From Mesoterricola sediminis (GTDB lineage: Bacteria > Acidobacteriota > Holophagae > Holophagales > Holophagaceae), in assembly GCF_030295425.1 (NCBI RefSeq), contig NZ_AP027081.1:3207001-3271000 (forward strand): a stretch of 64,000 nt of DNA. Reading direction: 5' to 3'. The notes under the pieces are model-generated. The model did not search any database, was not told where the DNA came from, and worked only from the letters and a program-made list of their open reading frames with translations. Positions 52,047-55,695 of the stretch are shown here, in pieces; position 1 is the first letter of the stretch, and every line of letters begins with the position of its first letter. A program made the position numbers and the translations under genes.

Positions 52047-54260
52047 ATGTTCGATATTGAACTGTCGCTGGATCAGCAGATCCTCGCTTCGGGCCGCATC
52101 CGGCCCGCCGTCGTCTTCCCGGAGGCGCTCGACCCGCGGATCATCGAGGCGGCCTGCAACCTCACCCGGTTCGCCCGCCCCGTGTTCCTCGCCACGGAGG
52201 CGGAGGTGCGGGAGGTGATCAGCCGCCAGCTCGGCCACCTTGATCCCACCCGCGTCGCCTTCGCCCTCTCCGAGAGCGCCTTCGTGGACATCACGAAGCG
52301 CCAGGACCTGGTGGAGGCCTTCGCCCGGGACCACGTGGAGGCCTGCCGCGCCGAGGGCCGCGAGATCAGCCTCTTCGACGCCCAGTGCTGGGCCTCCGTG
52401 CCCGTCAACTTCGGCATCATGGCCGTGGCCCACGGGCACGCGGACACCGTCGTGGGCGGCGTGGCCACCGGCGAGAAGGCCTTCTTCCGCCCCATGCTGA
52501 AGCACCTCAAGGCCCAGGAGAACTGCTGCGAGGCGGGCATCTTCGTCCTCCCCGACGAGCATCCGAAGGACATCATCAACCAGAACATCGTGGTCTTCGG
52601 GGACGTGGGCGTGAACGCCGTCATGACCCCCGAGAGCCTCGCCGCCTCCGCCGTGGGTACCTGCGCCATCGCGCGGGACCTCATCCCCGAGTCCGTGCTC
52701 CCCGAGATCAACGGCGCCATCGTCTCCTATTCCAACCGCGGTTCCGACGACGGCCCGGGCGCGGATCTGGTCCGGGAGGCCACCCGCCTCGTGCCGGCCC
52801 TCCTGGAGGAGCGGATCCGCCGCGGCGACCGCTACCGCTCCATCCGGATCCAGGGCGAGGTCAAGGTGAACGTGGCCCTCTCCCAGCGCTCCGCCACCTA
52901 CTACCACGGGGGCCAGGACGTGCAGTGGCCCGGTTCGGCCAACGTCATCATCTGCCCCAACCTGGACATGGGGAACATGCTCTACCACCTCTACGCGACC
53001 CGGTTCCCCGACGCGAAGAAGTTCCCCGTCCTGTTCGGGCTGCGATTCAAGGGCGTGGACCTGGCCATGGACTGCACCCCCGAGGACATCCGCCTGGCGG
53101 TGAAGGCTTCCGTGCTGCGGATGTACAAGTACGGCCAGTGGGAGGAGACCCCGAAGGACACCTTCTTCCGCCGCTACCGCGTCCTCGCCATCAACCCCGG
53201 CTCTACCTCCACCAAGATCGCGATCTACGAAGGCGACAAGGAGCGCGCGACCCAGGAGCTCCAGCACGCCGCCGAGGAGCTGCTGCCCTTCGAGGGCCAG
53301 CCCATCACCAGCCAGTTCGCCTTCCGCAAGGACGCCATCCTCGCCTTCCTCGCCGAAGGCGGCCTGGGCGTCGCGGACCTGGACGCCGTGGCCGGCCGGG
53401 GCGGCCTGCTGTGGCCCCTCGAGCACGGCACCTACCACGTCAATGAGCGCATGGCCGACGACCTGGCCCAGGGCGTCCAGGGCGACCACGCCTCGAACCT
53501 GGGCGGCCTCATCGCCCGGGAGCTGGTGGCCGGCACCGGCAAGCCCGCCTTCATCGTCGACCCGGTCGTGGTGGACGAGGTGCCCGATTTCGCCAAGATC
53601 ACGGGCGTCAAGGCCATCCGGCGGAAGGTGATCAGCCACGCCCTCAACCAGATCGCCACCGCCCGCCGCTACGCCGAGGAGCACGAGACCTTCTACGAGC
53701 GCATCAACGTCATCGTGGCCCACCTGGGCGGCGGCATCTCCGTCGGCGCCCACGTGAAGGGCCACTACCTGGACGTGAACAACGCCCTGGACGGAGAAGG
53801 CCCCTTCACCCCCCAGCGCTCCGGCTCCCTGCCTGTTGGCCAGCTCATCGAGCTCTGCTTCTCCGGCAAGTACACCCGGGACGAGCTGAAGAAGCTGAAC
53901 AAGGGCCGGGGCGGCCTCATCGACCTCCTGGGCACCGCCGACCTGCGGGCCCTGGAGGGCCGCTACCTCGCCGGGGAGGCCGAGGTGATCCAGGTGATGG
54001 ACGCCATGGCCTACCAGATCGCCAAGTGGATCGCCTCCCTCGTGCCCGCCTTCCAGGGCGAGCGGGTGGACCAGGTGCTCCTGACCGGCGGCATGGCCCG
54101 CTGCCGGCCCACCGTGGACTACATCCGGAAGGCCATCGCGGCCATGGGGTGCGGGCTGACCGTGTACCCCGGCGAAAATGAAATGTTCGCCCTGGCCAAG
54201 GGCGCCCTCCGGGTGCTCGCGGGCAAGGAAGCGCCCAAGGACTACCACGGCCGGGCCTGA
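52047..54260 (+). CDS. Fused phosphate acyltransferase-butyrate kinase
   Basis: A 737-residue protein joining two enzymes normally made separately. Residues ~1-375 are a phosphate acetyl/butyryltransferase (PTA_PTB) domain ('IRPAVVFPEALDPRIIEAAC', 'VGGVATGEKAFFRPMLKHLK', 'SANVIICPNLDMGNMLYHLY'). From ~378 it is a butyrate kinase of the ASKHA fold: 'VLAINPGSTSTKIAIYEGD', 'VAGRGGLLWPLEHGTYHVN', 'VIVAHLGGGISVGAHVKG' and 'VDQVLLTGGMARCRPTVDYI'. It would convert acyl-CoA to acyl phosphate and then make ATP plus acid. The ATG at 52047 has AGGAG six bases upstream. No stop or frame change separates the halves. A stand-alone phosphate butyryltransferase is 0.5 kb downstream. Confidence 0.9.
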   Translation: MFDIELSLDQQILASGRIRPAVVFPEALDPRIIEAACNLTRFARPVFLATEAEVREVISRQLGHLDPTRVAFALSESAFVDITKRQDLVEAFARDHVEACRAEGREISLFDAQCWASVPVNFGIMAVAHGHADTVVGGVATGEKAFFRPMLKHLKAQENCCEAGIFVLPDEHPKDIINQNIVVFGDVGVNAVMTPESLAASAVGTCAIARDLIPESVLPEINGAIVSYSNRGSDDGPGADLVREATRLVPALLEERIRRGDRYRSIRIQGEVKVNVALSQRSATYYHGGQDVQWPGSANVIICPNLDMGNMLYHLYATRFPDAKKFPVLFGLRFKGVDLAMDCTPEDIRLAVKASVLRMYKYGQWEETPKDTFFRRYRVLAINPGSTSTKIAIYEGDKERATQELQHAAEELLPFEGQPITSQFAFRKDAILAFLAEGGLGVADLDAVAGRGGLLWPLEHGTYHVNERMADDLAQGVQGDHASNLGGLIARELVAGTGKPAFIVDPVVVDEVPDFAKITGVKAIRRKVISHALNQIATARRYAEEHETFYERINVIVAHLGGGISVGAHVKGHYLDVNNALDGEGPFTPQRSGSLPVGQLIELCFSGKYTRDELKKLNKGRGGLIDLLGTADLRALEGRYLAGEAEVIQVMDAMAYQIAKWIASLVPAFQGERVDQVLLTGGMARCRPTVDYIRKAIAAMGCGLTVYPGENEMFALAKGALRVLAGKEAPKDYHGRA

Positions 54261-54469: not shown

Positions 54470-54751
54470 GTGTCCGTCGAACTGGCGAAGAGCGACTTGA
54501 GCCTGGAGGGCCTGCTCCAGGACGCCGCCCCGCCGTTCCGCCATGCCATCCTGGGGGCCCTGGAACGGGAGGGGTACGAGATCACCCGAGGGATCCCCAA
54601 CCTGCAGCTGCCCCTGGAGATCGACGATTCGATCGGATGGCTGGCGGATGCCCGGTACGGGGACGCATGGTCCCGCCTCCACCGCACGCTGATGCGCGCG
54701 GCGTCGGAGGGGACCCTCGTGGATCTGAGCTACGGGGCTGGCGGGTCCTGA
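54470..54751 (+). CDS. Uncharacterised 93-residue protein
   Basis: Starts at a GTG six bases after GGAGGG. The protein is soluble and helical ('FRHAILGALEREGYEITRGI', 'WSRLHRTLMRAASEGTLVDL'). I recognise no family. A strong hairpin lies about 60 bases upstream. It is convergent with the phosphate butyryltransferase gene. Confidence 0.6.
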   Translation: MSVELAKSDLSLEGLLQDAAPPFRHAILGALEREGYEITRGIPNLQLPLEIDDSIGWLADARYGDAWSRLHRTLMRAASEGTLVDLSYGAGGS

Positions 54752-54789: not shown

Positions 54790-55695
54790 CTACTTCGCCG
54801 TGAGGGCGGCGAGGGCGATGGAGTAGAGCTTGGTCAGCACGCTGTCCCCGCGGGAGGAGAGGATGCAGGGGGCCTGGGCGCCGGCCACGATGGCCGCGAT
54901 CTCGCAGCCCGCGAGCTTGCTGCTGGTCTTGTAGAAGACGTTGCCCGCGTCGATGTTGGGGAAGACCAGGCAGTCCGCGTCGCCGGCGACCTCGCCCCCG
55001 ACGCCCTTGGTCCGGGCGCATTCGGCGTCGACGGCCACGTCCAGGGCCATGGGGCCGTCCACCCAGGCGCCCTTGATCTGGCCGCGGTCGGCCATCTTGG
55101 CGATGATGGCGGCGTCCACGGTGGGCTGCACCTTGGGCAGGACCTGCTCCGAGGCGGCGATGAGGGCCACCTTGGGGCGGGCGATGCCCAGGGCCTGGGC
55201 GACGCCGACGACGTAGTTGGTGATCGCGATCTTCTCCTTGAGCTCCGGGTAGGGGATGACGGCCACGTCGCCGCAGACCAGGAGCTTGGGGTAGCTGGCG
55301 TGCTCGATGACGGAGACGTGGGAGAGGATGGCGCCGTTGTCCATGAGCCCGGCGTCCTTGTTGAGGATCGCGCGCATGTACTTGTCGGTGCTCACGAGGC
55401 CCTTCATCAGGATCTGGGCCTCCCCGGACTTCACGAGCGCCACGGCCCGGGCCGCGGCCTTGACCTCGGAGGGCTCGTGGATGATGCGGAACTGGGCCGG
55501 GTCGATGCCCAGCTCCCCGCACACCTTGCGGATCACCGCCTCGTCGCCCACGAGGGTGCCGTCGACGATGCCGCGGCCCACGGCGTCGTGGACGGCCTCG
55601 ATGGTGTGGGCGTCGTTGGCGTAGGCGGCGGCGAGCCGGCGCCGGGGCTTGGCTTTCACGGCTTCGAGCATCTGTTCGAGGCGGGTGATGGACAT
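54790..55695 (-). CDS. ptb: Phosphate butyryltransferase
   Basis: A 301-residue acyltransferase exchanging CoA for phosphate on short or branched acyl groups. Landmarks are 'GEAQILMKGLVSTDKYMRAI', 'LVCGDVAVIPYPELKEKIAI', 'AWVDGPMALDVAVDAECART' and 'ADCLVFPNIDAGNVFYKTSS'. Length matches Ptb of clostridia (~300). The nearby fused acyltransferase-kinase supplies a kinase, so two different acyltransferases could feed one kinase activity, perhaps with different acyl chain preference. GGATCC/GGAGG-like sequence precedes the ATG. Confidence 0.9.
   Translation of the reverse strand: MSITRLEQMLEAVKAKPRRRLAAAYANDAHTIEAVHDAVGRGIVDGTLVGDEAVIRKVCGELGIDPAQFRIIHEPSEVKAAARAVALVKSGEAQILMKGLVSTDKYMRAILNKDAGLMDNGAILSHVSVIEHASYPKLLVCGDVAVIPYPELKEKIAITNYVVGVAQALGIARPKVALIAASEQVLPKVQPTVDAAIIAKMADRGQIKGAWVDGPMALDVAVDAECARTKGVGGEVAGDADCLVFPNIDAGNVFYKTSSKLAGCEIAAIVAGAQAPCILSSRGDSVLTKLYSIALAALTAK

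Follow-up and report, generated by a model that had tools for sequence, protein, structure and literature searches.

A Butyrate Kinase Fused to a Putative Pseudo-Phosphotransacetylase Domain in Mesoterricola sediminis and Other Acidobacteriota

Described PTA-Fold Sensors and Phosphotransacetylases

The phosphotransacetylase (PTA) domain of the hybrid malic enzyme MaeB is devoid of catalytic residues, binds acetyl-CoA, and controls the malic enzyme to which it is attached (PMC7902834, PMC12704298). The acetyl-CoA site lies between the two subdomains in B. bacteriovorus and on the outer face in E. coli; the PTA domain forms a D3 hexamer, and the linker moves the malic enzyme domains (PMC7902834, PMC12704298). 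Among the catalytically active phosphotransacetylases (Pta), the enzyme from P. gingivalis completely loses its activity through the single exchange S311A or R312A. The exchange D309A has the same effect, and D318A leaves 11% of the activity (PMC6461089).

The window described here, a stretch of 64,000 nucleotides from Mesoterricola sediminis (contig NZ_AP027081.1, forward-strand positions 3,207,001 to 3,271,000), encodes a butyrate kinase with a PTA-fold domain at its N terminus. Taken as a whole, this protein is probably best explained as a kinase with a dead regulatory domain rather than as a two-in-one enzyme, an interpretation based on the sequence and a predicted model.

The Fusion Gene and Its Distribution

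The fusion gene spans positions 52047 to 54260 on the plus strand, with the ATG at 52047, caggagtcatcc ahead of it, and the stop codon at 54258 to 54260. The frame is uninterrupted and encodes 737 residues. Residues 20 to 348 match the PTA_PTB family PF01515 with 102 bits (cut-off of 24 bits), and residues 378 to 731 match the butyrate kinase equivalog TIGR02707 with 435 bits (cut-off of 289 bits). An AlphaFold2 model built from 38 aligned fusions shows a mean pLDDT of 84 and a pTM of 0.84.

The original prediction of a single-chain fusion is borne out by this intact frame and by its recurrence in independent genomes. All 80 loci of an independent collection contain both domains in one frame, apart from truncations at contig ends and a frameshift in one MAG (L085), and so do the matches of full length in a set of 297 Acidobacteriota genomes. 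An assembly or frameshift artifact was rejected, since the identical single frame occurs in independent isolates and MAGs. M359, located near the domain junction, is replaced by Leu in 83 of 110 relatives and therefore does not indicate a conserved internal start releasing a separate kinase. Such a start was rejected on the basis of the alignment, in which the junction lacks a conserved Met among the 110 relatives.

A search for the same domain pair in other genomes, suggested together with the prediction, yielded the fusion in more than 100 genomes and MAGs. These are Holophagaceae/Geothrix isolates, further Acidobacteriota, and a scatter of records that bear the names of other phyla. The isolates include Geothrix fermentans DSM 14018, G. 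oryzisoli, G. campi, G. limicola, and G. rubra. The window genome's own family has 27 listed members in the draw of 297 Acidobacteriota genomes, and 23 of these carry the fusion (split between contigs in one case), which is also scattered over other families. Scanning of GTDB genomes with the N-domain alignment gave 104 relatives, 80 of which were kept as the independent set; all 80 are fused, and most belong to the Acidobacteriota, including Geothrix isolates. Records from outside this phylum are titled Krumholzibacteriota, Eisenbacteria, Elusimicrobia, Myxococcota, Spirochaetales, and Latescibacterota, but titles of MAGs can be wrong, which makes the spread beyond Acidobacteriota provisional. 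A draw of 149 genomes around the Spirochaetales record contains the fusion in the center genome only, the other matches being ordinary Pta-like frames. In line with the initial remark that the fusion is not known as a characterized enzyme, no paper describing a PTA-domain/butyrate kinase fusion was found in the open-access literature searched, and the same literature yielded no paper pairing butyrate kinase with Geothrix.

The Butyrate Kinase Domain

The butyrate kinase domain, residues 377 to 737 (positions 53175 to 54257, plus strand), contains a complete ASKHA active site, so that the kinase half of the protein stands as predicted. N383, S386, R451, D505, H559, R591, and E710 show no substitution in the aligned relatives wherever the position is present, and the motif NPGSTSTK is found in this domain. 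The active-site residues are presumably equivalent to those of acetate kinase. All 38 members of the fusion alignment match TIGR02707, and the predicted residues 376 to 737 match Buk2 of T. maritima with Z scores of 42 to 43. The putative substrate, butyrate or isobutyrate, is assigned from the family name.

Three PF00871 matches are found in the window genome, among which the fusion is the only butyrate-type kinase and the other two are acetate kinases. The presence of these two acetate kinase genes (L001 and L002) and a canonical Pta (L158) suggests that acetate and C4-type acids are served by separate kinases. A second candidate for an acid-kinase fusion in this genome, at L001, was rejected: the 903-residue stretch is a long stop-to-stop frame, and the gene is an ordinary ackA.

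The N-Terminal PTA-Like Domain

The N-terminal domain, residues 1 to 365 (positions 52047 to 53141, plus strand), has the PTA_PTB fold according to its PF01515 match and to the structural matches of the predicted residues 1 to 367, which align with Pta and with the PTA domain of MaeB at Z scores of about 30 to 33. The domain is closer to the Pta models (93 to 100 bits) than to those of phosphotransbutyrylase (Ptb) (20 bits) and lies far below every Pta and Ptb cut-off, with 93 bits compared to 311 for the Pta equivalog TIGR00651 and 20 bits compared to 399 for the Ptb model NF004472.

In the HMMER alignment, the motif DLSRGC of the M. thermophila Pta (MtPta) is matched by DLAMDC in the fusion, with MtPta S309, R310, and D316 corresponding to A340, M341, and D347. 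The codons for A340 and M341, at positions 53064 to 53069 of the plus strand, occupy the place of the catalytic Ser-Arg pair. None of 110 aligned fusions contains the two residues together, the Ser being lost in 109 and the Arg in 108. Position 340 is occupied by Pro in 61 fusions, Ala in 48, and Ser in 1; position 341 is Met in 94 and Arg in 2, with other residues in the remainder. The equivalents of MtPta D307 and D316 are retained. The pair is kept in the stand-alone enzymes of fusion-bearing and related genomes, as DLSRG in Pta and as SSR- or TSR-type motifs in Ptb.

With respect to the P. gingivalis enzyme, the equivalents of D309 and D318 are kept in the fusion and those of S311 and R312 are not. 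The loss of a pair whose individual exchanges inactivate that Pta argues against a working phosphotransacylase, and acyltransferase catalysis by the N-domain has likely been lost. The initial assignment of the N-terminal half as a phosphate acyltransferase is thus not sustained, given the family-wide loss of the pair and the scores below the Pta and Ptb cut-offs.

Conservation of the Domain, Cleft, and Linker

Judged from sequence comparisons, purifying selection acts on the two domains with similar strength: pairs of family members are on average 66% identical in the N-domain and 71% identical in the kinase, and dN/dS values between Geothrix genomes are 0.15 and 0.13, respectively. Residues 363 to 376 (positions 53133 to 53174, plus strand) form a linker of the type GxWxxTPxDTFFRR that is nearly invariant in relatives, with G363, W365, T368, D371, T372, F373, and F374 each present in at least 107 of 110. 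The cleft residues R148, N310, Y/F313, and D347 are retained across the fusions. Taken together, the similar dN/dS values, the invariant linker, and the kept cleft residues indicate that the N-domain is probably functional. Several CoA-site positions of MtPta are changed in the fusions, namely, S128 to Pro, K283 to His, Q286 to Thr, and T298 to Met or Leu, so that CoA is not assured as a ligand of this domain; a ligand site related to that of Pta but remodeled is plausible from the alignment.

The N-domain could instead be a structural or oligomerization appendage without a ligand of its own, kept because the kinase has come to need it in order to fold or assemble. The nearly invariant linker would fit such a role, and because butyrate kinase alone suffices in relatives, the domain could simply be entrenched. 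The conservation, however, extends into the ligand cleft, at the four residues named above and beyond the needs of a scaffold, which leaves this explanation improbable.

The Neighboring Phosphotransbutyrylase

A canonical Ptb, the likely pathway partner of the fusion, is encoded by the convergent neighbor P0001 at positions 54790 to 55695 of the minus strand. Its best NCBIfam matches are Ptb models with 319 to 325 bits, below their cut-offs of 399 to 410, and it keeps the motif LSSRGDS, Ser-Arg included. By its sequence, a real ACYLTRANSFERASE adjoins the fusion, as this complete Ptb-like gene faces it in the window. A small frame of 93 amino acids is located between the two convergent genes at positions 54470 to 54751 (plus strand), and in many Geothrix genomes the gap between fusion and ptb amounts to about 0.8 to 1.2 kb.

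A complete fusion is present in 29 of the Acidobacteriota genomes; Ptb adjoins it on the same contig in 28 of these (one cut at a contig end) and is found on a different contig in the remaining one, G292. In G284, in which the fusion is split, Ptb was not seen. Ptb lies downstream of the fusion in 53 of the 80 loci of the independent set, in 27 of them convergent and in 26 co-directional, the gaps in the latter mostly ranging from 6 to about 240 bp. Nine of the 27 loci without an adjoining Ptb end at contig ends. Searches of the whole genomes for the other 18 loci revealed further PTA_PTB proteins in all of them, and 3 contain a Ptb-like gene about 10 to 20 kb from the fusion. No conserved metabolic neighborhood beyond ptb was recognized, and the upstream neighbors vary between groups. 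Two differing Ptb-like genes in tandem (frames of 309 and 337 amino acids) occur in G303 (L155, 650 to 2579, plus strand), a genome in which a Pta of ordinary length was not found besides the fusion. A further genome from the window genome's family, G150, keeps ptb (contig 15, 98475 to 99371) and is devoid of the fusion and of butyrate kinase matches.

With the Ser-Arg pair lost and a canonical Ptb adjoining, the two steps still appear to be split over two proteins, which goes against the channeling of acyl phosphate within the fusion that had been proposed at the outset. A bifunctional enzyme, in which an N-domain with altered catalytic residues makes acyl phosphate and hands it over to the kinase, would accord with the PTA fold, the two retained catalytic-site aspartates, the succession of the two activities, and the purifying selection on the N-domain. 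It is nevertheless unlikely in light of a loss common to all family members, more than half of which have Pro in place of the Ser, the low Pta and Ptb scores, and the canonical Ptb kept beside the fusion.

A dead PTA domain might also serve as a docking scaffold that holds the separate Ptb to the kinase, with acyl phosphate passed within a two-protein complex. This would be in keeping with the tight genetic linkage of fusion and ptb, which run in the same direction and are closely spaced in 26 loci, and with the dimerization of classical PTA enzymes through the PTA fold (PMC7902834). The N-domain is, however, of the Pta and not the Ptb type, so that a dimer interface shared with Ptb is not expected, and the linkage of ptb and buk occurs without a fusion too; such a scaffold is hence hardly probable.

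In fusion-less Acidobacteriota (G146, G296, G216, G272, and G256), a stand-alone butyrate kinase directly adjoins ptb, and the PTA-like domain was therefore probably added to a working pair. The simplest history compatible with these loci would be a gain of the domain in front of buk, with ptb retained.

Origin of the N-Terminal Domain

Phylogenetic analysis places the N-domains of the fusions and the MaeB rows in separate groups, each supported at 100/100. The MaeB rows group with ordinary Pta, and the fusion domain stands apart on a supported branch. The tree contains long branches, and the exact placement of the fusion N-domain is uncertain; a descent from Ptb or MaeB is unsupported by it.

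The nearest unfused relative of the N-domain is a stand-alone PTA_PTB protein of ∼390 amino acids in G012 (L153, 2064 to 3293, minus strand), which shows 38% identity to the N-domain over part of its length. It keeps the Ser-Arg pair (DFSRSS), lacks the Asp316 equivalent, and is encoded near a gene for a TPP-enzyme C-terminal domain resembling a subunit of 2-oxoacid:ferredoxin oxidoreductase. This protein may resemble the source of the fusion N-domain.

Proposed Role and Significance

The preferred explanation is that a butyrate kinase gained an N-terminal, catalytically dead domain of the phosphotransacetylase fold. The separate adjoining Ptb would form the acyl phosphate from CoA esters of the butyryl or isobutyryl type, and from this phosphate the kinase domain of the fusion would form the acid and ATP with ADP, or catalyze the reverse. 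The PTA-like domain would most likely bind a CoA species (CoA, acetyl-CoA, or a pathway acyl-CoA) in the cleft between its subdomains and, through oligomerization and the conserved linker, tune kinase activity to the acyl-CoA/CoA state. We infer the ligand, the oligomer, and the direction of regulation, as we do the absence of acyltransferase activity.

The role of the domain would be that of the PTA domain of MaeB, arrived at independently. The two lie on separate branches and have lost different residues, which leads to the proposal of a convergent use as a sensor of CoA esters. On this analogy, regulation of the butyrate kinase by a pseudo-PTA sensor appears rather probable, with the kept equivalents of D307 and D316, not required of a domain that has no catalytic role at all, speaking against it. 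More tentatively, the fusions may represent a widespread, undescribed class of acid kinases in which a dead homologue of the enzyme one step earlier in the pathway, linked in cis, senses the acyl-CoA/CoA pool that supplies the active neighbor Ptb with its substrate and gates substrate-level phosphorylation, as a second independent conversion of a PTA enzyme into a sensor.

A pseudoenzyme domain conserved across the family suggests a regulated step in the Ptb-Buk pathway, which is usually described as merely two catalytic proteins. If true, the fusion would be the second independent example after MaeB of the PTA fold acting as a sensor, making it testable whether the same allosteric route of cleft closure and linker movement arose twice. 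The label "bifunctional phosphotransacetylase/butyrate kinase" is probably wrong for these proteins, and correct naming is relevant to metabolic models of Acidobacteriota and to the engineering of butyrate and isobutyrate pathways.

Comparison with Known Systems

The kinase part of the fusion is a full-length match to described butyrate kinases (TIGR02707; T. maritima Buk2, 1saz/1x9j), with 331 bits in phmmer and a complete active site. The known butyrate kinases are stand-alone enzymes, whereas the fusion carries about 376 extra N-terminal residues. These residues show a whole-domain fold match to Pta (M. thermophila, 1qzt; P. gingivalis, 6iow), with a Z score of about 33, but differ from it in the replaced S309 and R310 equivalents and in scoring 93 bits, below the cut-off of 311. 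In two-gene ptb-buk systems, as found in Clostridium and in unfused Acidobacteriota, the butyrate kinase gene adjoins ptb as it does here. The kinase of the fusion differs in bearing the extra domain, and ptb is convergent with the fusion in Holophagaceae in contrast to the co-directional genes of the two-gene systems.

The hybrid malic enzymes (MaeB, DME, and TME) share with the fusion a catalytically incomplete PTA-fold domain on a different, active enzyme (PMC7902834, PMC12704298), and the predicted fold of the fusion N-domain matches the PTA domain of MaeB with a Z score of about 32. The acetyl-CoA-binding pocket of MaeB is only partly conserved in the N-domain. The malic enzyme catalytic domain is absent from the fusion, in which the malic enzyme model matches the PTA part alone (residues 123 to 319). 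The partner is thus a butyrate kinase instead of a malic enzyme, the PTA-like domain is N-terminal instead of C-terminal, and the positions of the lost residues read DL[AP]M in the fusion compared to VLQR in the MaeB rows.
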